NCBI GenBank assembly: GCA_947630765.1
Contig: CANRIX010000002.1
Span: forward strand, 39,387-103,386
Source: an uncultured Clostridia bacterium
GTDB lineage: Bacteria; Bacillota; Clostridia; Oscillospirales; CAG-382
DNA: 64,000 nucleotides
Reading direction: 5' to 3'
Shown here: positions 8,164 to 14,772 of the stretch, piece by piece
How the letters are laid out: each line of letters begins with the position of its first letter
Numbering within the stretch: position 1 is the first letter of the stretch
Translations under genes and position numbers: made by a program
Notes under the pieces: generated by a model
Told to the model about the DNA's origin: nothing
Database searches by the model: none
Seen by the model: only the letters and a program-made list of their open reading frames with translations

Positions 8164-9282
8164 GTGTTTGAGGCTTATACGTTTGAGGCATTACTGGACG
8201 ATGTGCTGCGGAACGCCCCAGAGGGGATAGACACACGGCAGGGCAGCATTTTCTATGATGCTGTGTCGGGAATTATCCTACAAATCGCAAGGATGTATAC
8301 GGACCTTGAAAGAGTGTTCCAGCTTGTTTTCGTAACATCGGCAGAGGGCGAATATCTGGATATGAAAGCAAGCGAATACGGGATGAAGCGGCTGAATGCG
8401 ACATCGGCAAAATACAGGCTCGTGTATGAGGGAGCAACGCCGTCAATCGGAGCAAGGTTTTTCCACAATGACACGGGACTGTATTTCAGGGTAGGAAGTG
8501 ACGACGGCGTATTATTCCTTGAATCGGAGCAGGTTGGCACGGTGGGCAACAATATTCCTGTTGGAGCGTTGGCTGTGCCAGTGAATACCATTCAGGGGCT
8601 TTTATCGTCCACGTTTGGCGAAGTGTATGAGTACGGGTCTGACGAGGAATCGGATGCAGACCTCCGAACGAGAGTGCAGGAAAAGATTGCAGGACCAGCC
8701 GAGAACGGCAACAAGCAGCATTACAAGACGTGGTGTGAAAGCGTTGACGGTGTAGGTCTTGCGAGAATAACACCGCTCTGGAACGGCCCGAACACGGTGA
8801 AAGCGGTGCTGATAAGTCCGCTCGGATTGCCGTGCAGCGAGAACATCGTCGAGAACGTCCAAAACTATGTTGACCCGTCCACGAAAGGGATTACGGTCGA
8901 TATTAAGGGCAAGACATACCCTGTCGGCGACGGGCTGGGAGAGGGCGTTGCAAATCTTGGCGCCCATTTCACAGCCACGGCAGCGGACAGCGTAAATGTT
9001 GCCGTGAGGTTTAAGGCCGTGATAGCAGAGGGACGGTCGGAAGATGATGTACGACAGGAAGTCACGGAGGCGTTGACGGAGTATTTCAAACAGCTTGTTA
9101 TGGAAACGGCAAGCGCATCGGATATTGTCGTGCGTATCACGGCAGTCGGCGCGATGATTTCAGGAGCGGAGAGCGTCGTCGATTATAGCAACCTTACGCT
9201 GAATGGAGGAACGTCGAATATATACCCAGGCGAGGACGGCGTTCCCGTTGTGTCGGAGGTGACCGTCGATGTCGATATTTAA
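8164..9282 (+). CDS. Baseplate J family protein (XkdT-like)
   Basis: GIDTRQGSIFYDAVSG, SDEESDADLRTRVQEKIAGPAENGNKQHYKTW. Confidence 0.85.
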   Translation: MFEAYTFEALLDDVLRNAPEGIDTRQGSIFYDAVSGIILQIARMYTDLERVFQLVFVTSAEGEYLDMKASEYGMKRLNATSAKYRLVYEGATPSIGARFFHNDTGLYFRVGSDDGVLFLESEQVGTVGNNIPVGALAVPVNTIQGLLSSTFGEVYEYGSDEESDADLRTRVQEKIAGPAENGNKQHYKTWCESVDGVGLARITPLWNGPNTVKAVLISPLGLPCSENIVENVQNYVDPSTKGITVDIKGKTYPVGDGLGEGVANLGAHFTATAADSVNVAVRFKAVIAEGRSEDDVRQEVTEALTEYFKQLVMETASASDIVVRITAVGAMISGAESVVDYSNLTLNGGTSNIYPGEDGVPVVSEVTVDVDI

Positions 9283-10387
9283 TCCCTACTGGAAGTGTAA
9301 CTACGACGAGCTGATAACGTATTATCCCCGCTATTACAGGGATGTGCTGGAAATGGATGCAATTCTTCACGCGGAGGGTCGCCTTGCGGATGGATTACAG
9401 AACGGCATTGACCTAATCCTGATGAATAACTTCATTGACGGAGCGGACGAGGACACAATCGGAAAGTTTGAGCAGTTTCTTGGGCTGTCGTTGCTTAAAA
9501 GGCGTTCTGTGGAGGAACGACGGCGGCTTGTAAAGAGCTTTTTCGCTGGTATGGGAAAAGTATCAGCCACAAGAATTGCCGAGACTATACGGGCGTACAC
9601 GGGCGCAGAAACGACGTGTGATTTCTACCCGTTTGACGAGGCAAGAAACAACCGCCTCGATATAATGTTCCAGCGTGGGAATGAAGAAACGATATACGTC
9701 AGCGATATATATACCTTGCTGGAAAGGATGCTGCCCGCGCACATCGAGTGGCGGGCGATGATTGTGTATCGTTTCGGCATCGGGGTAGGATGTCGCAGAG
9801 AGCATTACAAATATCTGTATGAGTTCTGCGGAACGAAGCCGTATTCTGTCCTTATCGCGGACGTGAATGGAGTTACGACGGTCGTTGAAACACACATCAC
9901 TGGCGTAAAAGCTGATTATAAGCACAGCGCACAGGATGGAGTTATGCAGCGTTCGGGGCAGCATCCGAATACTGCGCTCCTTGCGGGAGTGAGAACAGCC
10001 GATACAGTGGTGGAGGTTGGCATCACGAACGACGTGGAGACGTACAAATTCAGCGGCTACGGCGAGGCTGGAAAGCACCCGAACACGACAACCTTTGCCG
10101 AGGTGATAGGCGCTGACGTGGGCATCGGTGCAGAGAACGAAAATGCGCTCATAATGTATAAGCGCACGGGTGTTGAGCCTGACACCGCCACAATCGCCCA
10201 CGAAAGCGAAATCGCGGTCGGGGTAGGAGAAAATTCTGAACACACAGTTATGGACTACAAGAGCAGCGGCGTAATCCCTGACACCGCCACCCTTGCCCAT
10301 AATGATGAGATTAACGCCGCAGTCGAGGTGAAGTCCTCCGATTACGGCGTTAATTATATTCCGTGTGGTACAACTTTCACAAGATAG
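9269..10387 (+). CDS. YmfQ/DUF2313-like tail protein with C-terminal repeats
   Basis: N-terminal tail-protein signature followed by five ~33-aa repeats. Confidence 0.65.
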   Translation: MSIFNPYWKCNYDELITYYPRYYRDVLEMDAILHAEGRLADGLQNGIDLILMNNFIDGADEDTIGKFEQFLGLSLLKRRSVEERRRLVKSFFAGMGKVSATRIAETIRAYTGAETTCDFYPFDEARNNRLDIMFQRGNEETIYVSDIYTLLERMLPAHIEWRAMIVYRFGIGVGCRREHYKYLYEFCGTKPYSVLIADVNGVTTVVETHITGVKADYKHSAQDGVMQRSGQHPNTALLAGVRTADTVVEVGITNDVETYKFSGYGEAGKHPNTTTFAEVIGADVGIGAENENALIMYKRTGVEPDTATIAHESEIAVGVGENSEHTVMDYKSSGVIPDTATLAHNDEINAAVEVKSSDYGVNYIPCGTTFTR

Positions 10388-11617: not shown

Positions 11618-12694
11618 ATGAGTAACTTTGACCTTGCGAGCCTTGCGCTCAAATCAGCGTTTCCGAAGAACACAATCCTGACCGACGATAAGGGACTGCC
11701 GTCCGTGATGGTGTACGTACCGAAGTTCAAGATGTCGGAAGTTATCGAGGGAGGCACGGACAGCACCCATCCCGCGTTCATCGTTGACGGTGTGGAGCGC
11801 AGCGGCATCTATATTTCCAAGTATCAGAACAAGGCATATAACAGCCGCGCGTATTCCCTGCCCGGGGAAGACCCGACCGCGAGTATCAACGCTGACACCG
11901 CAAGACAGTATTGCGAGAGTAAGGGCGCGGGCTGGCACCTGATGACGGCGATGGAATGGGGCGCCATCGCATTGTGGTGCAAGAAGAACGGCTGGCTGCC
12001 CTACGGCAACAACAATTACGGAAAGGACACCCGCGAAAAAACCTACGAGGCTGTTCCTACGTATGAGTACGACGACAGCGGTCACCATATCGGTAGAGTT
12101 GCCACTGGTACTGGACCTGTCACATGGTCGCATAACAAGCAGCTCGATGGTATCTATGACCTGAACGGCAACGTCTGGGAATGGACGGACGGGATGAGGC
12201 TCGTATACGGCGAGTTGCAGATTTTGGAGAATAACAATGCTGCAAACGCCTCGAACCTCAAAACCGCCGCGTCTGCCGCGTGGAAAGCCATCGACGGTAA
12301 GACTGGCGCCCTTATTACCCCGAACGGGAGCGGCACTACCACGAACAGCTTGAAGCTGGACTATGTTTCGAGCAATTGGAAGTGGATTACGGGCGAAATC
12401 ACCAGCAAGGATGACAGCAGCCGCTCGTGCCTGTTCTTCAATGTGTCTGCCGACGAGGACGTTGTTGATAAGGCAAAGGAAATCCTTCACGCGCTGGCTA
12501 TGCTGCCTGATGAGACGGAGGACAAGTACGAGGGCGACTATTTCTGGGCGAATAACGCGCAGGCAGAGCGTTTCCCGTGTCGTGGCGGCGGCTGGCACCG
12601 CGGCACGGGCGCGGGCGTGTTCGCTGCGGGCTTGAACGATGCGCGGTCGAATGTGTCCCCGGGCGTCGGTTTCCGCTCCGCTTTTTACGAATAA
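11618..12694 (+). CDS. DGR target protein: SUMF/C-type-lectin-fold tail adhesin with C-terminal variable region
   Basis: IYDLNGNVWEWTDGMR and WHLMTAMEWGAIALWCKKNG motifs; C-terminus RFPCRGGGWHRGTGAGVFAAGLNDARSNVSPGVGFRSAFYE overlaps the VR. Confidence 0.93.
   Translation: MSNFDLASLALKSAFPKNTILTDDKGLPSVMVYVPKFKMSEVIEGGTDSTHPAFIVDGVERSGIYISKYQNKAYNSRAYSLPGEDPTASINADTARQYCESKGAGWHLMTAMEWGAIALWCKKNGWLPYGNNNYGKDTREKTYEAVPTYEYDDSGHHIGRVATGTGPVTWSHNKQLDGIYDLNGNVWEWTDGMRLVYGELQILENNNAANASNLKTAASAAWKAIDGKTGALITPNGSGTTTNSLKLDYVSSNWKWITGEITSKDDSSRSCLFFNVSADEDVVDKAKEILHALAMLPDETEDKYEGDYFWANNAQAERFPCRGGGWHRGTGAGVFAAGLNDARSNVSPGVGFRSAFYE
12568..12682 (+). repeat. DGR variable repeat (VR)
   Basis: 115-bp gapless match to TR 13300-13414 with 21 mismatches, all at TR adenines. 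Confidence 0.97.
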
Positions 12695-12722
12695 CTGATA
12701 ACTGAACACTGGCACACTGATA

Positions 12723-12744
12723 AGGGGCTGCGATAGCAGCCCCT
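12723..12744 (+). promoter_or_regulatory. DGR target-recognition hairpin downstream of VR
   Basis: AGGGGCTGC-GATA-GCAGCCCCT, perfect 9-bp stem, GRNA-type tetraloop, 40 bp after VR, no T tract. Confidence 0.8.
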
Positions 12745-12773
12745 ATCTCTGCCAGTAGAAAGGAGCGCACAAG

Positions 12774-13262
12774 ATGGAGGATGCGCACAAAGAAGTAGCG
12801 GAACAGCCATCGTTTGACGATGGAGTTCCCGCGTTACAGTACAAGCAGTTTTTCCTCAAAACGAAAATCGAGGACATGATGAAGTACGGCAAGAAAGCCG
12901 TTGCGACGTTTCCTCGGCGCGAGAGGCAGACGGCTGATGAAATCCGAAGGACGATGCTCGATATGTACCGCCTGTCAATCCAAATTGAACGGAAGTATTT
13001 CAAGAAATCGACGTTGCAGGATTTGGACGTAAATCTTGATGTGCTGCGGCATTTGGTGAGGCTCGCAAACGATAAGGATTACTACGACGAGATGGTGCCG
13101 AAAAGGGATGCGAGCGGCAGAGTGATAAAGGACGGGAACGGAAAGACTGTCAAAGTCAGGATGATGCCGCCCCTGCCCGATAAGCGGTACAAGGTTTGGA
13201 GCGGGATGCTGGACGAAATCGGAAAAATGATTGGCGGTTATATCAAGTCCGTAAAGGGCTGA
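12774..13262 (+). CDS. avd: DGR accessory variability determinant (Avd-like four-helix bundle protein)
   Basis: 162-aa helical basic protein between VR and TR; size and position typical of avd. Confidence 0.85.
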   Translation: MEDAHKEVAEQPSFDDGVPALQYKQFFLKTKIEDMMKYGKKAVATFPRRERQTADEIRRTMLDMYRLSIQIERKYFKKSTLQDLDVNLDVLRHLVRLANDKDYYDEMVPKRDASGRVIKDGNGKTVKVRMMPPLPDKRYKVWSGMLDEIGKMIGGYIKSVKG

Positions 13263-13299
13263 TAAAGCCGCCTTTTGTTTTGTGGGAATAAGCCAAACA

Positions 13300-13414
13300 G
13301 CGTTTCCCGTATCGTGGCGGCAACTGGAACAACGGCACGAACGCAGGCGTGTTCAATACGAACTTGAACAATGCGCGGTCGAATGTGAACACGAACATCG
13401 GTTTCCGCTCCGCT
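13300..13414 (+). repeat. DGR template repeat (TR)
   Basis: Adenine-rich AAC/AAT codon copy of VR; 28 A, 21 substituted in VR. Confidence 0.97.
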
Positions 13415-13608
13415 CTGCTGTTATGTCGGAAAGAAATGGGCGAAGCCACCCGCCGAAAGGTGGAGGCTTTACGCACGGAACATAACACCAAAGGGGCTTA
13501 TTTCCATTCCTGTGTTGAACATCACGGGAAAAAGATTGTATTGCTGCGAAAACGCCACGTGGAGGGCGAGGCGGAAACGTCACGCGCAGCGGGCAGGAGG
13601 TGTAGTCA
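13415..13608 (+). ncRNA. Putative 3' spacer of the DGR template RNA
   Basis: Intergenic TR-RT spacer with potential stems (e.g. CCACC-cgccgaaa-GGTGG); analogy to Bordetella phage TR RNA. Confidence 0.5.
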
Positions 13609-14772
13609 ATGGAGAATGGGCGCGAGTATAGCGTCATCACGGATGTATTTGACCAGATATGCGATTTTGATGAGCTGATGAAAGCGCATCGGAATGCACG
13701 GAAAGGCAAGCGTTATCGGGGAGATGTCCTCCGTTTCACGAATGATTTGGAGGGCAACATCATCAATTTGAGCAATCATCTTAGATGGGAGAGCTACGAG
13801 GTAGGACCGTATCACCCGTTTTATGTTCACGAGCCTAAGACGAGACTTGTGATGTCCTTGCAATATCCCGACCGCGTTGTACAGTGGAGCATATACGATA
13901 AACTGTACCCGTTCTATGACAAAATGATGATTGAAGACAGTTTCGCTTGCCGAAGAAATAAGGGCAGTCATAAGGCTGCCGACAGGCTGCAATATTGGCT
14001 TAGACAGGTGGACCGAAAGCCGCAGAAATGGTACTACTTGAAGTTGGATATTTCAAAATACTTTTACCGAGTAGACCACGCCGTTTTGGAGGAAATTCTT
14101 TCAAGACGGATAAAGGACGAGCGGCTGATGAGATTGCTCCACAAGATTATCAACTGCGAGGACACGCGGTTCGGACTTCCCGCAGGAATGTCGCCCGATG
14201 ATTGCCCCGAAGATTTATGGCTGTGGGACGTTGGGATGCCCATCGGGAATTTAACTTCGCAATTATTTGCGAACATCTACCTTAACGAGCTGGACCAATT
14301 TTGCAAGCACAAACTCCACACCCATTTTTACGTCCGATATATGGACGATATTATAATATTATCCCCCGATAAGGGTCAGCTTGCCGAGTGGAAACAGGAA
14401 ATTGCAGTCTTTTTGGAGGACAACTTACGGTTGAGCCTGAATAAAAAGACGGCGATACGTCCGATTTCCCTCGGCATTGATTTTGTCGGCTATAAGATAT
14501 GGGCGACACATCGGAAGTTGAAAAAGCAGACGGCGCGGAGGATGATACGCCACGTTGCTACGATGTGTGACCTTATGGCGGCTGGTGAGATGAGCGAAGA
14601 AGAGTTCAGACGCGTTGCCGCGTCCTATGGAGGCGTTATGCAGCACTGTAACAGCTACGGGATGCGGACGAAGATGAACAGCTTTTACATCGAGTACAGA
14701 CGCAAAATTTCCGAGGCAAAAGGCTGGGAGAATGAAGAACAAACGGACAACAAAAGAGGTGATGCAGTTTGA
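13609..14772 (+). CDS. DGR reverse transcriptase
   Basis: MPIGNLTSQLFANIYLNELDQFCKH (DGR-type (I/V/L)GxxxSQ motif), YVRYMDDIIILSPDK active site, FVGYKI. Confidence 0.97.
   Translation: MENGREYSVITDVFDQICDFDELMKAHRNARKGKRYRGDVLRFTNDLEGNIINLSNHLRWESYEVGPYHPFYVHEPKTRLVMSLQYPDRVVQWSIYDKLYPFYDKMMIEDSFACRRNKGSHKAADRLQYWLRQVDRKPQKWYYLKLDISKYFYRVDHAVLEEILSRRIKDERLMRLLHKIINCEDTRFGLPAGMSPDDCPEDLWLWDVGMPIGNLTSQLFANIYLNELDQFCKHKLHTHFYVRYMDDIIILSPDKGQLAEWKQEIAVFLEDNLRLSLNKKTAIRPISLGIDFVGYKIWATHRKLKKQTARRMIRHVATMCDLMAAGEMSEEEFRRVAASYGGVMQHCNSYGMRTKMNSFYIEYRRKISEAKGWENEEQTDNKRGDAV

Follow-up and report, generated by a model that had tools for sequence, protein, structure and literature searches.

An Avd-type DGR in a Clostridia prophage very probably serves two target genes from one template, with a CTG array and a hairpin after each VR

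The DGR cassette and its prophage

Detailed knowledge of how diversity-generating retroelements (DGRs) choose their targets, and of the one-way flow of information from template repeat (TR) to variable repeat (VR), comes mainly from one phage. The locus described here resembles this prototype, BPP-1 (Guo 2011, PMC3240598), in its mtd-avd-TR-brt order, its A-specific mutagenesis, and a GRNA-loop hairpin after the VR. In its published form, the DGR target hairpin has a 7- to 10-bp GC-rich stem and a GRNA loop and lies after the VR but not after the TR (Guo 2011, PMC3240598). Closer in layout is Faecalibacterium phage FP_Lagaffe (Cornuault 2018, PMC5883640), which has the same baseplate-to-endolysin gene order, FGE-type targets, and Avd, as well as two VRs for one TR (second VR: PMC11792537) with CTG-type units after both. 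Multiple targets have already been described for phage DGRs (PMC11792537, PMC10743442), so the two-target layout reported below is a recurrence and not a first.

We analyzed a window of 64,000 nt, C2:39387-103386, from a host assembly of 39 contigs; positions are those of the window unless a contig is named. The cassette lies in a contractile-tailed prophage of ∼60 kb (C2 ∼4 to 64 kb), which lies dormant in the genome of a gut-type Clostridia bacterium. One border is at a serine recombinase near C2:4.2 kb and the other at about window position 24.5 kb, both approximate. The features are as follows.

9269-10387: baseplate-type gene, Mu gp48-like, with small genes between it and target gene 1
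11618-12694, + strand: target gene 1, 358 aa, C-type-lectin (FGE/TaqVP) fold, in the tail/baseplate operon
12568-12682, + strand: VR1, at the C-terminal end of target 1, 21 mismatches to the TR
12695-12719, + strand: CTG array, CTG at 12695, 12702, 12709, and 12717 (spacing 7-7-8)
12723-12744, + strand: hairpin/cruciform, 9-bp stem and GATA loop (AGGGGCTGC-GATA-GCAGCCCCT)
12774-13262, + strand: Avd accessory protein, 162 aa
13300-13414, + strand: TR, 28 A's in 115 nt
13414-13608, + strand: structured part of the TR RNA, between the TR and the RT gene, with a consensus fold
13609-14772, + strand: reverse transcriptase (RT), 387 aa
15539-17206: endolysin, 3' of the RT after small genes

Target 1 matched Pfam FGE-sulfatase, phrog_2889, and the variable protein TaqVP (PDB 5vf4; phmmer E=1.6e-46), and its predicted model (pLDDT 94, TM 0.91 to 5vf4) has a TaqVP-like fold over the whole chain. 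The accessory protein was identified by Pfam bAvd (5.5e-20) and phrog_3206, Avd protein of DGR (3.1e-26). The RT was identified by RVT_1 (2e-21), phrog_1423 (1.9e-132), and PDB 8ub7 (1.3e-50), and it shares 40 to 56% identity with annotated DGR RTs. The consensus fold of the TR RNA, built with 16 relatives, has 34 pairs, and for 21 of them one or more sequences carry a compensatory change; an Rfam search returned no match.

The original prediction held that VR1 (12568-12682) and TR (13300-13414) differ at 21 of 28 template A's (15 A>G, 5 A>C, 1 A>T) and at none of 87 other positions. Repeating the pairwise alignment, gapless over 115 nt, we obtained the same coordinates, counts, and substitutions: all 21 mismatches fall on TR A's, VR1 equals the TR at 87/87 non-A positions, and there are no substitutions at template C, G, or T. 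The chance of placing 21 of 21 mismatches on 28 A's is 2e-17 (hypergeometric). A repeat finder recovered this pair at 82% identity (12567-12682 / 13299-13414), the identity extending one base 5' of the predicted start (12567/13299). In the target reading frame, no substitution of a TR A can produce a stop codon.

The accompanying claim that VR1 has been rewritten from this TR gains support from the full DGR gene set, from the conserved structured RNA after the TR, and from a second VR that also departs from the TR only at A's. Together with the A-only TR/VR pair, we found a DGR-clade RT beside the TR, an Avd, a C-type-lectin target with a C-terminal VR, and a GC-rich hairpin after the VR and not after the TR. 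It is close to certain that the element is an ordinary, complete DGR in a prophage, with a C-type-lectin target, Avd, TR RNA, and RT.

We sought the same TR in 23 other genomes of the genus and found none, with a single weak match of 71% over 86 nt; 8 genus-level genomes of >90% completeness gave no match. Among 24 relatives, TR A positions differ in 16% of cases versus 20% for other positions, and none of the 9 TR differences from the nearest relative falls on an A, which amounts to a weak signal that selection may keep TR adenines.

A second target under the same template

Searching the genome with the TR revealed two places besides the TR and VR1. One is the TR of another DGR, located where contig C1 ends. 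The other is a second VR, outside the window but on the same contig and in the same prophage.

C2:17375-18481: target gene 2, 368 aa, in the early region after the integrase, with VR2 at its end
C2:18352-18463 (L005 10353-10464): VR2, 33.6 kb upstream
C2:18478-18525: array and hairpin of VR2

VR2 differs from the TR by 17 mismatches, 17/17 at TR A's (10 G, 4 C, 3 T), and equals it at 84/84 non-A positions; the probability of A-only change arising by chance in both VRs is 9e-30. A direct comparison of VR1 with VR2 shows differences at 20 template A's; the two share 12 changed A's, an overlap no greater than chance, which fits independent rewriting. Target 2 is homologous to target 1 over most of its length (37% amino acid identity), and its model is also TaqVP-like, more weakly than that of target 1 (TM 0.70 to 5vf4, mean pLDDT 74). 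We infer the functions of both targets from their fold.

Based on these observations, we conclude that this is very probably an Avd-type DGR of a contractile-tailed prophage in which one TR rewrites two target genes whose sites appear to be marked by an array and a hairpin. RT-dependent mutagenic homing at VR1 and VR2 would account for the TR/VR patterns. The two VRs, for each of which we have one sequence, might instead record past rewriting by a cassette that no longer acts in the prophage. We consider such a frozen state unlikely: the RT, Avd, and target reading frames are open, and decay would erode the complete non-A identity of both VRs to the TR. An origin by target gene duplication, point mutation, and selection, with no reverse transcription, would suit the homology of the two targets but is strongly disfavored to the point of being negligible, because genes only 37% identical outside the VR nevertheless match the TR at every non-A base of both VRs, with a vanishing chance of A-only change.

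The original prediction offered RT bias, selection, or few rounds of homing as causes of the A>G excess. Across 131 TR/VR pairs of relatives, which were chosen for A bias and therefore show the spectrum but say nothing on A-specificity, A>G accounts for 52% of template-A substitutions (865 G, 454 T, 360 C), rising to 70% when the next base is C. We found no significant difference between the combined spectrum of VR1 and VR2 (25 G, 9 C, 4 T) and the spectrum of the relatives (p = 0.07), so there is no need to assume few homing rounds; either RT bias or selection may lie behind the excess. The A>G excess is normal for the family.

The layout recurs in other phages. The second target of Dulem virus 37 is 70% identical to target 2 over 85% of its length, and in 8 related IMG/VR phage records with both kinds of target, the two lie 30 to 38 kb apart in 7 and about 4 kb apart in 1. 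An early-region second target repeatedly shares a diversifying template with a tail protein.

Close downstream of target 2, we also observed a MazF/PemK-like domain fused to DUF3850 (L005 10961-11677; C2:18960-19676), followed by an S-adenosylmethionine synthetase gene (L005 12051-13130). The separate DGR on contig C1, with its own RT, Avd, and TR (C1:237477-239595; L007 11600-13596; minus strand), belongs to another prophage and lies beside smpB. Its VR is cut by the contig end, and the VR flank also carries a 7-7-8 CTG array.

CTG arrays and hairpins after VRs

Both VRs on C2 are followed by the same module, which is absent after the TR. Between VR and hairpin lies an array of CTG units, AACTGATAACTGAACACTGGCACACTG after VR1 and CACTGATAACTGATTGCTGAATGACTG after VR2, each spaced 7-7-8. 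The VR1 hairpin has a 9-bp stem and a GATA loop and that of VR2 a stem of about 8 bp and a GGTA loop; both are GC-rich and fit the published stem and GRNA-loop form, and the TR flank has none. The VR1 hairpin folds as single-stranded DNA with z = -6.6 and lies 40 nt from the VR, beyond the published range of 4 to 34 (PMC3240598). Counted as in relatives, the loop center lies 17 (VR1) and 16 (VR2) nt from the fourth CTG. In the genome stretches that we read on both strands (the window, C2:1-45000, and C1:226000-239595), there are three arrays, and 3/3 follow VRs.

Among relatives, which were gathered by RT similarity and whose counts are not independent events, chains of at least four CTGs occur in 55 of 78 nonredundant VR flanks, versus 4/1560 dinucleotide shuffles, 0/78 flanks further downstream, and 0/125 TR flanks; about a third of VR flanks have fewer than four units. 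Across 1.95 Mb of loci, 97 of 111 CTG chains directly follow a VR, and at least 3 of the other 14 (L063, L089, L162) resemble VR ends missed by the cutoff. The spacing is exactly 7-7-8 in 41/55 arrays. Of the 41 arrays for which a hairpin was scored, 38 have the loop center at 15 to 16 nt from the fourth CTG, regardless of stem length.

Pattern scans do not depend on RT similarity. We scanned 2.9 million viral contigs blindly with the pattern ACTG-N3-ACTG-N3-ACTG-N4-ACTG alone and found 108 stretches, of which the 80 listed yielded 69 distinct sites for follow-up. A stem of at least 6 bp with a GNNA loop was present at 44/69 sites tested, all with offsets of 14 to 17, and 43 of these 44 (43/69 tested) follow the end of a C-type-lectin-like gene; another 19/69 had no hairpin, such gene end, or Avd and look like chance. 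In an earlier scan with a related pattern, all 20 matches directly followed a VR-like end (20/20), and all had an Avd downstream (20/20).

A second array type, ATCTG, mostly keeps the same spacing and tracks RT lineage, with 3 changes on a tree of 109 labeled RTs; an Aeromonas phage has TTG units in place of CTG. The array is not a universal DGR feature, being absent from BPP-1 (which has only CCTGATTCTTG), ANMV-1, cr55_1, and LPPA56, and degenerate in VP58.5, ACA1, and ARM81mr. BPP-1 and archaeal, crAss-like, and some Pseudomonas DGRs have either no array or a reduced one, and so not every DGR requires it. The idea that hairpin stems are always alike within one genome proved only partly true: they are alike in the genome studied here, Dulem, G031, G042, G046, L028, L133, and roughly G047, and unlike in G037, G038, G039, G045, and L122, and we therefore do not claim concerted evolution.

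Several single cases add detail. The two target hairpins of G042 (L321, L322) differ by one compensated base pair and share a GAAA loop (stems GGGCGGGC/GCCCGCCC and GGACGGGC/GCCCGTCC). At L329 about 2380-2450 (the Lagaffe second VR), CTG units spaced 8-8-9-7 run on inside an open reading frame. A possible degenerate array, ATCTT-ATCTT-ATCTT-ATCTG at 7- to 8-nt steps, is found in phage nd12 (L255 5731-5832), in coding sequence after a VR that lies close to the beginning of the tentaclin gene.

The hairpin is already known (Guo 2011), and the array, we believe with less assurance, is undescribed: a search of the open-access literature returned no description of it, and searching the text of Guo 2011 (PMC3240598) by term did not find it.

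Target recognition and comparison with known systems

Judging from its specificity, register, and conservation, we think it probable that the CTG array takes part in target recognition. A broader proposal, for which we see the case as evenly balanced, is that targets of many Avd-type DGRs in Firmicutes phages are marked by an undescribed composite site, CTG-7-CTG-7-CTG-8-CTG plus a GNNA hairpin in near-fixed register, which is read as one unit and makes targets of even genes at least 30 kb away. A reduced form may occur in some proteobacterial Avd-type DGRs. The reader of such a site might be the RT-Avd-RNA complex, which is the obvious candidate, or a host factor; because steps of 7 to 8 nt do not match the turn of B-DNA, it could be one that reads single-stranded DNA. 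A test for base pairing between the array and the TR RNA gave no support for it, and we rejected the idea: the longest complementarity averages 6.36 nt versus 6.35 for mismatched pairs.

The array could also be a by-product that places stops in every frame behind the target gene or forms part of a transcription terminator there. It does lie mostly just past the stop codon and before the hairpin, and some units contain TGA or TAA. We nonetheless find this account improbable, given that the CTG and not the stop codons is invariant, that the ATCTG type mostly retains 7-7-8, that CTG units continue in coding sequence where the Lagaffe second VR lies inside an open frame, and that no consistent T run follows the hairpins. 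Weaker still is the alternative that the CTGs are start sites for a DnaG-type primase, with lagging-strand synthesis opening or priming the target beside the VR. BPP-1 homing in Escherichia coli favors targets in which the strand complementary to the cDNA serves as template for lagging-strand synthesis (PMC12875486), and gammaproteobacterial primases prime efficiently at CTG (PMC5204125), but tested Firmicutes primases prefer CTA/TTA, with CTG poor for the Clostridioides difficile primase (PMC5204125). Altering DnaG made no difference in E. coli, a result that the authors themselves grade as inconclusive (PMC12875486), and the TTG units of the Aeromonas phage also fit poorly. We regard a primase role as quite unlikely.

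Returning to recognition of a composite site, we suggest the following sequence of events. The TR and its structured flank would be transcribed, and the RT with Avd would copy the TR into cDNA, misreading A's. This cDNA would then replace the 3' ends of target 1, which is next to the cassette in the tail operon, and of target 2, 33.6 kb upstream. Since both targets have the TaqVP C-type-lectin fold, the likely product is a library of variant phage binding proteins; transcription, RT/Avd action, and receptor binding are all predictions from the sequence. The composite site of ∼50 nt past each VR would mark the target and permit action on a distant gene, and its absence at the TR would keep transfer in the TR-to-VR direction only.

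If this is true, a fixed-geometry site of about 50 nt would serve near and distant targets across a large clade, and targets would become predictable from DNA alone. Target recognition could then also be tested cleanly, and the site would help in applying DGRs to the diversification of selected genes.

Compared with the known systems, the locus differs from BPP-1 in the distance of the hairpin from the VR (4 bp in BPP-1, 40 here) and in having a four-unit CTG array, which BPP-1 is without; the BPP-1 region that we read has one target. Both targets of the locus here share the fold of TaqVP, the Thermus aquaticus DGR variable protein, which has about 30% sequence identity and a different host. 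FP_Lagaffe, for all its similarity in gene order, has an RT 46% identical to the one here, ATCTG-type units, and a second VR inside an open frame. Dulem virus 37 (PP511443) likewise combines a tail-region target and a distant one under a single TR, and carries CTG arrays and identical hairpins after both VRs; its RT is 56% identical, and its second target lies between the lysis genes and the integrase, unlike target 2 here, which follows the integrase.
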